From contig CAIWVP010000001.1 of the NCBI GenBank assembly GCA_903916195.1, positions 1 through 44,693 of the forward strand: a DNA stretch of 44,693 nucleotides, written 5' to 3'. The notes under the pieces are model-generated. The model made no database searches. It was not told the DNA's origin and was given only the letters and a program-made list of their open reading frames with translations. This document shows positions 7,543 to 44,693 of this stretch, piece by piece (position 1 is the stretch's first letter; each line of letters starts with the position of its first letter). Source of the DNA: an uncultured Verrucomicrobiota bacterium (lineage in GTDB: Bacteria; Verrucomicrobiota; Verrucomicrobiia; Limisphaerales; UBA9464). Both the position numbers and the translations under genes were made by a program.

Positions 7543-7869
7543 TTAGGGCTGGAGCAGGGCCCGGAGCAGGCGGCGGCAAAGCGACCTGCCGGTCGCGCCG
7601 ACGCGCCGAGCGGCGTCCTCCGTCATCGCTGCTTTGTCTCTGCCGTCGGCGTCGATGACCTTGGGGTCGCAGAAGCCCGGCACCAGCCCGGGACCGGCTT
7701 CCAGCGGACGCATCAAGGTCGCGATGAACCCTGGGTCCCGGTGGTCGTCGAGGACCAGGATCTCCAGTCCGCGGTGGCTCTGCCGGCAGGCGCTCAGCAC
7801 GGCCTGGCGGAGCAGGGCGGGCCGGTTGAACGTCGGGACGCGGACCGTAACTAGTGGCAACCCGGACAT
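7543..7869 (-). pseudogene. Truncated family 2 glycosyltransferase stub
   Basis: The first ~50 residues (LPLVTVRVPTFNRPALLRQAV, then LEILVLDDHRDP) match the nucleotide-sugar-binding start of GT2 glycosyltransferases. After this the reading frame loses resemblance and stops at about 109 residues, a third of normal length. No acceptor-side domain is visible. It is divergent from rsmH and sits in its upstream region. It is probably a decayed gene, though expression of a short protein cannot be excluded. Confidence 0.5.
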
Positions 7870-13307: not shown

Positions 13308-13751
13308 ATGGCTTCCACCTTTCTAAGCCTCCACTACCACCTTGTCTTTTCGACGAAGGAGCGGCGGCCGTTTATCCGGCCGGACCGGCGTTCTCGCCTG
13401 CATGATTACTTGGGCGGGACGGTCAACGGGCTTGGTGGCATCAGCCAGCAGGTCGGCGGCGTCGCCGACCACGTCCATCTGCTCATCGGCCTGAAGGCGA
13501 CGCATTGCCTTGCCGCCTTCATGCGCGAGCTGAAAAAGGCTTCCTCTGCTTGGGCGCGGACGGATTTCGAACCGGAGTTCGCGTGGCAGGACGGCTATGC
13601 CGCCTTCACGGTCAGCGCTTCCGTGCGTGAGCGGGTGCTGGATTACATCCGGAGGCAGGAAGAACATCACGCTCATCGGGAATTCGCCTCCGAATTGAAG
13701 GAACTGCTCGAGAAGCACGGCGTGGCCTACGACCCGAGATACCTGCTGTGA
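13308..13751 (+). CDS. REP-associated / IS200-like Y1 transposase
   Basis: The 147-residue protein is a Y1 HUH-family transposase that would cut and rejoin single-stranded DNA at hairpins. It shows LHYHLVFSTKERRP at the start, the metal-binding HUH pair H55-V-H57 (DHVHLLIG), and the catalytic Tyr113 in the YIRRQEEHH motif. The C-terminus KHGVAYDPRYLL is typical of this group. It is full length with no frame damage and so may be active. It starts 15 bases after a REP-like hairpin and is enclosed by long direct repeats. No TnpB or IscB partner is present. Whether it is an IS200-like element or a domesticated RAYT is not settled by the sequence. Confidence 0.9.
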   Translation: MASTFLSLHYHLVFSTKERRPFIRPDRRSRLHDYLGGTVNGLGGISQQVGGVADHVHLLIGLKATHCLAAFMRELKKASSAWARTDFEPEFAWQDGYAAFTVSASVRERVLDYIRRQEEHHAHREFASELKELLEKHGVAYDPRYLL

Positions 13752-41226: not shown

Positions 41227-41238
41227 AACAGGCGGAGG

Positions 41239-41273
41239 TCTGGGGTCTGGGGTCTCGGATTTCAGGTTTCAGG
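41239..41273. repeat. Heptamer tandem repeat (five units)
   Basis: Five consecutive 7-base units read TCTGGGG twice, TCTCGGA once and TTTCAGG twice. On the other strand they are CCTGAAA, TCCGAGA and CCCCAGA, the same kind of units as at 5864-5933 but in the opposite orientation. It lies between the prepilin-like gene and the PVC heme-protein gene. Confidence 0.8.
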
Positions 41274-41279
41274 TCATCT

Positions 41280-41307
41280 GCGTCACGCATCACGCGTCAC
41301 GCATCAC
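41280..41307. repeat. Heptamer tandem repeat (four units)
   Basis: GCGTCAC and GCATCAC alternate, two copies each, immediately after the first heptamer run. The unit length is again seven, although the unit sequence differs from the neighbouring array. Confidence 0.8.
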
Positions 41308-41367
41308 GGACGCTCTTCGTTGTGCCGCTTCTCTTGCCGTGACGTGGCCGCACGATAGCCTCGACGT

Positions 41368-44300
41368 GTGAGATTCCTCCGGACGCTTCTCGGCCTTGTC
41401 GTCCCTCTGGTCTGCTGGGCGCAGCACGCCACCAATCCACCTGCCTTCGCCGCGGCGGCCGGGGATGCCAAACGCTTCCAGCTCGCGCCCGGCCTCAAGC
41501 TCGGCGTCTGGGCGGCCGAACCGCAGCTCAGCAACAGCGTCGCCTTCAGCATCGACGGCAAAGGGCGCATCTTCCTCGCGGAATCCGACCGCTGGGCCGT
41601 CAGCGTCTTCGACATCACCGCGCACACGAACTGGCTGCTGCAGGATATGTCCTTCCGCACCGTCGCCGATCGCGCCGCTTTCCTGAGCAACCAGTTCGCG
41701 ACCAACATCACCTTCCTTACCAAGGACAGCGAGGTCGTGCGGCGGATCGAGGACCGCGACGGCGACGGCCGGGCCGACCCTCCGGAGATCATCGCGACCG
41801 GCTTCAACTCGGTCGTGGACGGCACCGCGGCCGGCGTGCTGGCGACGGGCGATGATCTGTATTTCGCGAACATCCCGAACCTTTGGAAGATCTCGGCGGT
41901 AGGACCACGGATCGCGGATGGCAGCGCCGCCAGTTCCCCGACCCTCGACCCTCGACCCTCGACCCGAAGCGCCTTGGCCACCGGTTTCGGCGTCCACATC
42001 GGCGTGTCCGGGCACGATCTTCACGGCTTGATCAAGGGTCCCGACGGCCGGATCTACATGAGCTTCGGCGACCGCGGCGTGTGCCTCACCAACCGCGAGG
42101 GCTCGGTGATCAACCTGCCCGATTGCGGCGGGGTGCTGCGCTGCGAACCCGACGGTAGCGACCTGGAGCTCTTCTGCTCCGGCCTGCGCAACCCGCAGGA
42201 ACTCGCCTTCGACGACCTCGGCAATCTCTGGACCGTCGACAACGACACCGCCGGCGCCGATCCGTGCCGTGTGCTGCATCTGGTCGAAGGCGGCGACTAC
42301 GGCTGGCGCACCAGCTACCAGCACATGGACGGCTTCGGCCCGTGGGTGCAGGAGGAGCTTTGGAAGGGCGGCCAGGACGGCATCCTTCCGCCCGCCGGCA
42401 CGGTGAGCCAGGGACCGAGCGGGCTCGCGTATTATCCCGGCACCGGCTTCGGTGAGCGGCTCGCCGGCACGTTCTTGCACTGCGATTTCCCCGGCGGCGT
42501 GACGTCGTTCACGGTGAAGCCGCGCGGCGCGAGCTACGCCGTGGACCGGCAGGAGAAGTTCCTCTGGAACTGTTGGCCGACCGACGTGGATTTCGGGCCC
42601 GACGGCGCGGTGTACGTGCTCGATTGGGTGAGCGGCTGGACGCAATCGCCCAAGGGCCGGATCTACCGCATCATGCCTACCGACGTAGCCGCCGAGGTCA
42701 CGAGGCGGACCGGCGGCGACACGGCGGGTGCCTCCGCTTCCTCGGGTCGGCGGCTCCCGGAACCGGAACTGATCGCCCAAGTGAAGCGGTTGCTCGGCGA
42801 AGGCATGGCGGCGCGCGGTGAGAACGAGTTGCTCGGACTGCTCGGCCACCCCGACCGTCGCGTGCGGTTGGAGGCACAATGGGAACTGGCGGGGCGCTAT
42901 CGCGCGCCGAGCACGGCGGGGGTGCTCGCCACGATCAAGGCGGAGATGTTCAAGAATTCAACGCTGCCGGCGCGTCTCTACCGGATGGTTTCAGACTCCA
43001 AAGATTCCCTGGCTTCGGTCCACGCGCTTCGAGTGTTGGAAGGCTGGATCCGCACACAACAAGCGGACTTCATGCCGATGCTCGATGTGATCGGTGCGAC
43101 CAATAGCGTCGTCCGGACGGAAGCCGTCCGCGTCGCTGGGACGGCCGGCATCATCAATGCCATGCCTGCGCTGCGGACCCTTTCCACCAACGATCCGCCC
43201 GCGCTGCGTTTCAACGCTGCGATGGCGCTTGCGCGGCTCGCCAAATCCAGTCGCCTCCGCTTCTTCTTGGACGGTTCAGCGATGGTATCGAACTACCTTG
43301 TCCTGAACCGGGCACGCGCCGCCGCTGGTTTGGACACGCCGCTGCCTCAGCCGACCGCGGTTGACGCTTTTGCCATCCTCTCCGCGAATCTTACCGACGA
43401 CCCTTTCATCGAACACGCGGCGGTCTGGATCCTCACGACCTTGGGGGACACCAATAGTCTCGCAGCTGCGGCCACGGCTTCTGATTTCCGGACACGCCGC
43501 GGAGTTCTCCTCGCGCTCCGGCGTCTCACCCACTCCACGGTCACCCACTTCCTCTCCGACCCCGACCCGCGCCTCGTGGTCGCTGCCGGGCGCGCCATCC
43601 ACGACGTGCCCATCGCCGAGGGCTTCCCGGCGTTGGCGGGGCTCCTCTTGCGCGTCGATTGCCCGACGAACCTGATGTCCCGGGTGATCGACGCCTGTGC
43701 CCGCCTGGGCACGCCGCAGCACGCGCAACAGCTCGCCGGATTCGCCAAGCGCCGCGATGTGCCCGACGCCGCGCGGGCCCTCGCGCTGCGCACCTTGGCC
43801 GAATGGGGATCGCCGCCGCCGCTCGACCGCGTCAACGGCCTGTGGCGGCCCATGGTGACCGGAGCGCGGGCGGCCCGCCCGCGCGGAGCCGACGAGACCA
43901 GCCCCGCTGCCGACCGAGCGGATGGGCCATCCACGCTTCCGGCCGACCTCGGTCGTTCCGCGTCGTTCGAGGAAGGTGTCGCCGTGAAACGCAACGATGC
44001 GCCGGCGAAGCGCGCCTTCCTCCGTGTCGCCGGCGAGATCATGGATCCGTCCACGCCGGACGAGATCGGTGTGGTGGTGGGTGGCGCCCCGGCGTCGGCC
44101 ACCGTCCAGGTCGCCGTGGTCGATGCCGCGGTGGGATTGCGCACCAAGGAGGCCTCGACCCCGCTGTTCGCTTTGTACACGCGTCCGGGCACGCCGCCGG
44201 AGGTTCGCCGAGCCATCGTCCCCGCGCTCGCCCAGCTCAAGGTGGCGCAGGCCGGCGAAGCCGTGAAGATCGCGCTCGCCGATGCCGATCCGAAGCTGCG

Positions 44301-44693
44301 TTCCGCCGCGCTGCCGCATCTCGACCGGCTCGAAGGCGAGGATTCGGTGGGGTTGTTGGCCGGGCTCGTGGCGGCCGAGGTGACGAGGCAGAAGCAACCT
44401 CCGGCCGATCCGCCTCCTTACGTCGGTGGCTACGCCCTCGCCCAAGCCGCGCTGGCTGCGTTGGCGAAACTTCCTGGGACCCAAGCCGACGAGGCATCGC
44501 GCGGGTTCTTGGCTTCGCTCGAAGCCGGCCGGCTCCCGCCGGAATTGGCGCTCGATGTGCGTGAAGCCGCACGGGCGAGGACCCGTGCGCCGTCGGCGGC
44601 CACGGCTGCGGCGGCCAAGACGACCGTGCTCCGCGATACCTTGGTCGGCGGGGATGCGTCGCGTGGACGCGGGATCTTCTTCGGGAACCAGAC
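41368..44693 (+). CDS. PVC-type membrane-bound dehydrogenase / HEAT / heme-binding protein (partial, runs past the window)
   Basis: The open reading frame starts with GTG at 41368 and continues without a stop for 1108 codons to the window end. A signal peptide (FLRTLLGLVVPLVCWA) is followed by a PVC beta-propeller dehydrogenase-like region (FQLAPGLKLGVWAAEPQLSNSVAF, GHDLHGLIKGPDGRIYMSFGDRG, GLRNPQELAFDDLGNLWTVDND, VDFGPDGAVYVLDWVSGW) to about residue 440. HEAT-like repeats follow. The last residues, GDASRGRGIFFGNQ, begin the cytochrome-c-like domain whose CxxCH would lie just beyond the window. The protein carries three or four inserted repeat-derived segments in frame (separate entries). It is probably a secreted sugar or alcohol dehydrogenase; substrate unknown. 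Confidence 0.85.
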   Translation, partial: MRFLRTLLGLVVPLVCWAQHATNPPAFAAAAGDAKRFQLAPGLKLGVWAAEPQLSNSVAFSIDGKGRIFLAESDRWAVSVFDITAHTNWLLQDMSFRTVADRAAFLSNQFATNITFLTKDSEVVRRIEDRDGDGRADPPEIIATGFNSVVDGTAAGVLATGDDLYFANIPNLWKISAVGPRIADGSAASSPTLDPRPSTRSALATGFGVHIGVSGHDLHGLIKGPDGRIYMSFGDRGVCLTNREGSVINLPDCGGVLRCEPDGSDLELFCSGLRNPQELAFDDLGNLWTVDNDTAGADPCRVLHLVEGGDYGWRTSYQHMDGFGPWVQEELWKGGQDGILPPAGTVSQGPSGLAYYPGTGFGERLAGTFLHCDFPGGVTSFTVKPRGASYAVDRQEKFLWNCWPTDVDFGPDGAVYVLDWVSGWTQSPKGRIYRIMPTDVAAEVTRRTGGDTAGASASSGRRLPEPELIAQVKRLLGEGMAARGENELLGLLGHPDRRVRLEAQWELAGRYRAPSTAGVLATIKAEMFKNSTLPARLYRMVSDSKDSLASVHALRVLEGWIRTQQADFMPMLDVIGATNSVVRTEAVRVAGTAGIINAMPALRTLSTNDPPALRFNAAMALARLAKSSRLRFFLDGSAMVSNYLVLNRARAAAGLDTPLPQPTAVDAFAILSANLTDDPFIEHAAVWILTTLGDTNSLAAAATASDFRTRRGVLLALRRLTHSTVTHFLSDPDPRLVVAAGRAIHDVPIAEGFPALAGLLLRVDCPTNLMSRVIDACARLGTPQHAQQLAGFAKRRDVPDAARALALRTLAEWGSPPPLDRVNGLWRPMVTGARAARPRGADETSPAADRADGPSTLPADLGRSASFEEGVAVKRNDAPAKRAFLRVAGEIMDPSTPDEIGVVVGGAPASATVQVAVVDAAVGLRTKEASTPLFALYTRPGTPPEVRRAIVPALAQLKVAQAGEAVKIALADADPKLRSAALPHLDRLEGEDSVGLLAGLVAAEVTRQKQPPADPPPYVGGYALAQAALAALAKLPGTQADEASRGFLASLEAGRLPPELALDVREAARARTRAPSAATAAAAKTTVLRDTLVGGDASRGRGIFFGNQ
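41941..41968 (+). repeat. Heptamer repeat within the coding sequence of the heme-protein gene
   Basis: ACCCTCG occurs three times followed by ACCCGAA, another 7-base unit. It is translated as TLDPRPSTR in frame, between LWKIS and LATGFGVHIGV. Homologues usually have a charged calcium-binding-like DTDGDG segment here, as far as I recall. The repeat is related in form to 5864-5933 and 41239-41273. Confidence 0.75.
42685..42757 (+). repeat. In-frame hairpin repeat A in the heme-protein gene
   Basis: Two 25-base arms, 42685-42709 and 42733-42757, pair imperfectly (18 of 25) around a 23-base loop. The left arm (GTAGCC, GCCGAG, ACGAGGCGGA) is 21 of 25 identical to the left arm at 44368-44392. It reads VAAEVTRR in the protein and the frame is kept throughout. 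It resembles a mobile palindromic element. Confidence 0.65.
43864..43884 (+). repeat. In-frame GC hairpin in the heme-protein gene
   Basis: GCGCGGGCGG (43864-43873) pairs perfectly with CCGCCCGCGC (43875-43884) around one base. It is followed by GGAGCC, as is the GGGAC...GTCCC hairpin of the rsmH insertion (CCC then GGAGCCACC). The translation is an Ala/Arg/Pro-rich segment unlike the surrounding repeats (ARAARPRGADE). Probably a second type of inserted palindrome. Confidence 0.5.
44368..44433 (+). repeat. In-frame hairpin repeat B in the heme-protein gene
   Basis: Arms 44368-44392 and 44409-44433 pair imperfectly (18 of 25) around a 16-base loop. The left arm matches that of repeat A at 21 of 25 positions and is read in the same frame, giving VAAEVTR again; the right arm reads PPPYVGGY. 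Finding the same element twice in one gene in the same frame is strong evidence of a repeat family. Confidence 0.65.

Follow-up and report, generated by a model that had tools for sequence, protein, structure and literature searches.

The question raised by this locus is how a single gene came to hold two copies of a palindromic repeat and kept its reading frame open through both. The locus lies at the end of the window, by which the whole analysed stretch of 44,693 nucleotides is meant (contig CAIWVP010000001.1 of assembly GCA_903916195.1, from an uncultured Verrucomicrobiota bacterium). The genome containing the window comprises 4.39 Mb in 211 contigs and is 96% complete. The gene and its two elements, which are built like REPINs (two inverted repetitive extragenic palindromic (REP) sequences around a spacer), are:

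41368 to 44691, forward strand: host gene, an open reading frame (ORF) of 1108 amino acids, open at its 3' side at the contig end, encoding a heme-binding CxxCH protein of the Planctomycetes-Verrucomicrobia-Chlamydiae (PVC) type
42685 to 42757, forward strand: element A, a REPIN-type doublet of 73 bp, coding for residues 440-464
44368 to 44433, forward strand: element B, a REPIN-type doublet of 66 bp, coding for residues 1001-1022

A and B are very probably non-autonomous mobile doublets of a REP with a GTAG tag, which were captured in frame at flexible or variable joints of the protein at different times.

Element A is composed of a left arm (42685-42709, type 1), a spacer of 23 bases (42710-42732) and an inverted right arm (42733-42757, type 2, decayed), and element B of a left arm (44368-44392), a spacer of 16 bases (44393-44408) and an inverted right arm (44409-44433). 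At 21 of 25 positions the left arm of A is the same as that of B, and in A as well as in B the left and right arms are complementary at 18 of 25 positions. These coordinates and arms, together with the translation and the open frame, had been described in an earlier note and were all reproduced. In the consensus, a 5 bp stem (CCGCC/GGCGG) with a 10-base loop lies beside the tag, as in GTAG REPs (stem of 5-13 bp, loop of 2-20 bases); the stem was read from the consensus by eye and lies at the low end of the range in Table 1 of Di Nocera et al. (2013, PMC3733652). As single-stranded DNA, A folded better than shuffled sequences (z -2.84). Within the host gene alone such a pair is no more than mildly unlikely, being present in 10 of 200 codon shuffles.

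Searches of the genome with the arm consensuses GTAGCCGCCGAGGTNACGAGGCGGA and GTAGCCGCCGACGTNAGGAGGCGGA (at most three mismatches) gave 24 and 22 matches in overlapping sets, and the reversed patterns gave none, so that genome-wide the pair is far beyond chance. A lack of further copies, which the earlier note had named as evidence against mobility, is thus not what was found. Among the 24 matches to the first arm type, 15 start with GTAG, 5 with GTGG and 4 otherwise. When arms within about 200 bases were merged, the matches fell into 19 dispersed places (labelled C50, C207 and so on outside the window), of which 12 are inverted pairs with the GTAG ends outward (partner at up to six mismatches); their spacers measure 16-41 bases, and 153 at C64. 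The eight spacers compared all differ (pairwise identity mean 0.34, maximum 0.52, n=28). Seven of the 19 places were judged, from the GC content at codon positions, to lie well inside genes: A, B, C50 and C207 in TIGR02604 genes, C39a in a PSD1/PSCyt2 gene, C57a in a GST-like gene and C96 in a CMAS-type methyltransferase gene. At C34, C39b, C57b, C64, C128, C198 and C206a the copy touches the end or the first part of a coding-like ORF, and these were not counted as in-gene; at C34 and C39b the neighbouring frame stops at the TAG of the tag. When 58 genomes were searched, arms with at most two mismatches turned up in 20 (this genome being one of them), with 1 to 235 matches per genome; at the same threshold, the genus mates G002, G004 and G005 had none. 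Many of the 235 matches, which belong to G030 (loci L189, L192-L198 and others), stand in regularly spaced head-to-tail tandem rows, with four arms in one ORF at L189. In the flanks of several copies (L029, L012, L024, L020) the copy precedes another repeat of type CCGAGGTAGGGCGGAGCTGCCGCT, apparently of a further GTAG-type family.

The in-gene copies do not share one reading frame. In sense direction, the first arm yields VAAEVTRR or VAADVRRR in four copies (A, B, C50 and C57a), and three copies use the third frame, C39a (RRREEA), C207 (RRGDEA) and C96 (PRREEA); thus two forward frames are in use. The second arms of A and B are translated in different frames. A forward arm usually leaves two of the three frames open; the one in which the TAG of the tag is a codon is closed in every case, and in type 2 arms a T in the loop shuts a further one. 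Depending on the loop bases, a reverse arm is open in two frames or in all three. Whole elements were open in 41 of 66 frames, versus a fraction of 0.73 for random 73-base pieces of the window, and are therefore not specially open. Seven ORF entries at REP loci fetched from G003, G006, G014, G018 and G030 (L189 and L190 being one locus) contained arms in both forward frames and one in reverse. The genome search proposed in the earlier note thus yielded the many copies inside and outside genes that it had named as support, with two forward frames in use, and its suggestion that the repeats are tolerated because they have one open frame is ruled out.

The ages of the insertions were read from orthologs. 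For the host gene, 40 of 64 loci were aligned, among them two identical pairs; the 24 left out are second copies from another collection, the fragments L141, L147 and L085, and the split L143. The 35 named loci encoding relatives come from metagenome-assembled genomes titled Verrucomicrobia or a group within. Four records (L123, L137, L141, L148) are titled Akkermansia muciniphila; their orthologs, where in the tree, group with uncultured Verrucomicrobia bins, and these titles look doubtful. Site B is empty in all 32 orthologs that cover it (8 of the 40 fall short), including L115 from G003, the closest relative, at 93% identity; between the same anchors 29 residues are found here and 15 in L115. 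At site A, two of the 40 orthologs, L121 and L122 (genus g8), also contain this 73-base element in an identical position; their spacers are as long as that of A and match it at 14 and 16 of 23 positions, compared with the background identity between different sites given above. L115 keeps a remnant of A that has lost 33 bases. Between the anchors there are 35 residues here, 10-17 in 36 of the 40 orthologs and 28 in L118. Because A is shared with another genus and left a remnant in L115, and B is missing from every covering ortholog, A is old, predating the split of the genera or having moved between them, and B is young. The gene was thus entered twice, as the earlier note had stated, but not by one kind of event in time. 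Shared residues in distant homologues, which it had listed as counter-evidence, do occur at A, but there the DNA element itself is shared.

Besides A and B, the sites C50, C207 and C96 were compared with orthologs. The C50 copy (74 bases) is common to G014 (spacer 17/24) and absent from the other eight covering orthologs (G001-G007 and G017); the G020 match begins past the insertion site. At C207, for which orthologs were picked by ORF length and confirmed by BLAST, G014 has a copy at exactly this base, its spacer being equally long but unlike (8/21), and the other four orthologs read (G002, G004, G017, G020) have none; the stretch of G003 taken for C207 is a non-ortholog. G014 therefore shares three of the four sites at which its ortholog was read (A, C50 and C207, not B). 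The C96 copy, which G003 carries at the same place, lies in a 28-residue gap between stretches that align to the adjoining residues 25-185 and 184-350 of 6gkv_A, and by this alignment it cleanly interrupts a family for which structures have been solved.

The inserts were then placed on the protein. In a profile search the host protein matches TIGR02604 with 130.4 bits (cut-off 122.2) and contains DUF7133, HEAT_2 and GSDH domains, in the order beta-propeller, then HEAT repeats. Its C-terminal cytochrome (CxxCH) domain lies beyond the contig end; the orthologs show nearly invariant C, C and H columns. A and C50 occupy a matching joint, C50 and A standing at the propeller end right after GRIWRVVY and GRIYRIMP. 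Two further repeats, a heptamer array and a GC hairpin, had been reported in the gene and are present:

41939 to 41965, forward strand: heptamer array CGACCCT, 3.9 copies by Tandem Repeats Finder (TRF), in a loop (residues 191-200) whose length differs among orthologs
43862 to 43883, forward strand: single REP of a second family, the GC palindrome GAGCGCGGGCGGCCCGCCCGCG (folding z -2.85), at about residues 832-839, with the same residues in L115

An AlphaFold2 model built from 20 sequences reached a mean predicted local distance difference test score (pLDDT) of 74.4 and a predicted template modelling score (pTM) of 0.74, with 199 of 1108 residues under 50. Among the stretches under 50 are residues 180-196 at the heptamer array, 446-460 at A, 830-854 at the GC palindrome and 1014-1019 at B; each overlaps its repeat, B in the right half only. 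Other repeats were found in the corresponding loops of relatives, called by eye from their palindromic or tandem form, without a count of copies. The B loop contains a palindrome CCCTCACCCCGGCCCTCTCCC...GGGAGAGGGCTGGGGTGAGGG in G014 and GTGCTGCCGGTTTG...CAAACCGGCAGCAC in G020; the C207 loop contains the repeat GGGGAGAGGGCCGGGGTGAGGG in G020 and a CTCGAAA heptamer array in G002 and G004; and in the linker that precedes LPADLGR, where this genome and L115 have the GC palindrome, G014 and partly G020 have longer insertions, SPSPRPSPSG...PSPGGEGRGEGG. With copies inside and outside genes, an empty site B and sites overlapping stretches of low model confidence, the earlier proposal of mobile repeats tolerated as protein linkers is upheld.

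Taken together, the copies of the family are dispersed over the genome, site B is empty in relatives, an old copy at A is shared, and the elements lie in variable loops. A sequence of events can be proposed from these observations. The doublets would have been moved by a transposase of the RAYT type (REP-associated tyrosine transposase, IS200-like) acting in trans, and A and B would have entered the gene at different times. Both inserts may have survived since flexible joints were hit, A at the junction of propeller and HEAT repeats and B between two HEAT helices, and since the net change kept the frame. The 73 bp of A are accompanied by a net gain of some 60-63 bp and the 66 bp of B by one of some 42-45 bp, so that the length of an element need not be a multiple of three; as the gains are smaller than the elements, host bases were seemingly lost with each insertion. 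The protein presumably still works.

Several observations weigh against this proposal. B folds no better than shuffles (z -0.22), and of the imperfect hairpins named in the earlier note only A holds as such; B deserves the name only in the sense of a degenerate inverted pair. In the model, the left half of B, the VAAEVTR part, prolongs a helix (H992-1008) and is not a disordered loop, and the low model confidence at the inserts is partly expected since the homologues lack them. No clean target duplication could be read at the inserts, the host bases beside them differing between relatives. No arm of the A/B family was found in the stretches around the three RAYT-like genes of this genome (C98, C170 and C176). 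Among about 100 Y1_Tnp matches listed, 32 loci from 18 genomes were examined, and none has the REP within about 1.5 kb at up to five mismatches; a cognate RAYT may have been missed, the genome being 96% complete in 211 contigs. Since no RAYT flanked by the same REP was found, A and B are called REPIN-type doublets and not confirmed REPINs.

The old copies could also have spread by gene conversion, in which lineages exchange gene segments, and not by insertion in a common ancestor; this is unlikely, but far from negligible. The copies at A, C50 and C207 are common to G014 of another genus, while the genus mates G002 and G004 are empty. The C50 copy is missing from G003, the nearest relative of this genome, and the identity between these two genomes drops from more than 90% to 53-82% over residues 473-650, right after the site. 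In the host gene, the HEAT segment 42985-43527 (residues 541-720) is 15-37% identical to nine of the ten tabulated orthologs and 78-93% identical to the remaining one, G003, with well-aligning sequence on both sides; from this odd segment the gene looks mosaic. When residues 436-720 were used as query in 293 genomes, no donor was found, the long matches besides G003 being 31-41% identical. However, unrooted trees of three concatenated genes join this genome and G003 to G014, G020, G017 and G032 (99.9/93 for the N-terminal parts, 96/92 for the C-terminal parts), which also fits common descent with losses, and the host DNA directly beside the C50 copy resembles that of G003 more than that of G014. 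In the protein tree of the host gene this genome stands with G002 and G004 (99/95; G003 is not in this tree), and identity along the genes is mosaic. With conflicting trees and mosaic identity, descent with losses and exchange between lineages are both compatible with the data. B requires a new insertion in either case.

It is less probable, and on balance quite unlikely, that the repeats are kept for a function, either as useful linkers or, in the gene, as DNA or RNA structures that serve in transcription pausing or as sites for gyrase or nucleases, with arms under selection. This would agree with the comparison of this genome and G014 at A, C50 and C207, where the arms are identical at 137 of 150 positions and the spacers at 39 of 68 (Fisher p 1.7e-8). 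The difference may partly stem from ascertainment, since the copies of this genome were found by their arms, a search biased towards well-kept arms; those of G014, however, were found by position. Identities of the flanks, which an indel at C207 distorts, did not enter this comparison. It would also agree with the presence of four of the seven in-gene copies in TIGR02604 genes, of which 27 score above the cut-off and make up about 90 kb (2.0% of the genome). The binomial p is about 1e-5, and 2.4e-4 when A and B are counted as one gene (3/6); this test assumes a coding density of 88% and uses a small sample with in-gene calls made from codon-position GC. On the other hand, most orthologs do without the elements, the closest relative has lost much of A, and B folds no better than shuffles. 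Finally, that VAAEVTR is a repeat at the protein level, such as a HEAT helix, with the DNA likeness secondary, is barely credible and can be regarded as ruled out, because this DNA is also present outside genes and in other frames, and the peptide is missing from orthologs that lack the DNA, even though this part of B extends a modelled helix.

Starting again from captured mobile doublets, a broader and rather doubtful proposal can be made, namely that unrelated small repeats (GTAG REPINs, palindromes of the CCCTCTCCC and GCCGGTTTG types, heptamer arrays) share the joints of PVC-type heme proteins as landing sites and have been captured there repeatedly in frame. Captured REPINs would then be kept homogeneous, their arms near-fixed over genus-level divergence while spacers drift, by conversion from other copies or by selection on DNA or RNA.

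The GC palindrome belongs to the second REP family. GAGCGCGGGCGGCCCGCCCGCG occurs at 28 places with at most two mismatches, versus one for the reversed pattern. A RAYT ORF (C98:7665-8405; NF047646 86.4 bits, cut-off 80) is flanked by copies at 7609 (one mismatch) and 8450 (exact), with a third, exact copy at 7716 in its 3' part, so that for this family a REP stands beside a RAYT. Two more RAYT-like genes, L055 (C170, which also passes the cut-off) and L056 (C176, just below it at 78.7), adjoin repeats of their own, GCGGACTTTCCAGTCCGC and GCAGGTTTGCAACCTGC, seen several times in the stretches examined. The window itself contains an IS200/IS605-like transposase gene at 13326-13658 (Y1_Tnp; NF033573 60.6 bits), within 1.5 kb of which neither a GTAG REP nor an exact core of the GC palindrome was found. 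Upstream of the host gene, at 41237-41308, short tandem arrays of 7 and 14 bases are present (GGTCTGG, TTTCAGG, GCGTCACGCATCAC).

How mobile palindromes turn into protein sequence can here be followed in examples of different age, one young with an empty site and several older ones shared between genomes. Different repeats at homologous loops of one protein family make neutral capture in linkers testable by comparison. Among known systems, the nearest likeness is found in the verrucomicrobium Opitutus terrae, for which Di Nocera et al. (2013, PMC3733652) describe intragenic dimers of GTAG REPs, with some genes hit twice, and propose that intragenic GTAG REPs form flexible linkers or loops. Both have a GTAG tag (GTGG in most O. 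terrae GTAG-20), a short stem, head-to-head dimers with the tag outward, many intragenic copies coding for 20-30 residues and the TAG of the tag serving as stop codon, and both belong to the same phylum; the A/B family was likened to GTAG-1 to GTAG-24 by description and not by consensus sequences. Unlike in O. terrae, where DNA-repair genes are stressed, four of the seven in-gene copies here lie in PVC-type heme proteins. The REPINs of Bertels and Rainey (2011, PMC3116915) likewise consist of two inverted REPs with a spacer, scattered and with a conserved REP pair, but are described there as extragenic and near a cognate RAYT, whereas in this genome 7 of the 19 places lie inside genes, and the loci examined yielded no cognate RAYT. 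Rickettsia palindromic elements (RPE) are also palindromic repeats in frame in coding genes, but according to PMC3733652 those of R. conorii end in CGTC, unlike the GTAG-type ends of the A/B family. Intragenic GTAG-REP dimers were therefore known before; here, old and new insertions are separated against orthologs, and what is added are the other repeats at homologous loops in relatives and the conservation of arms over spacers.

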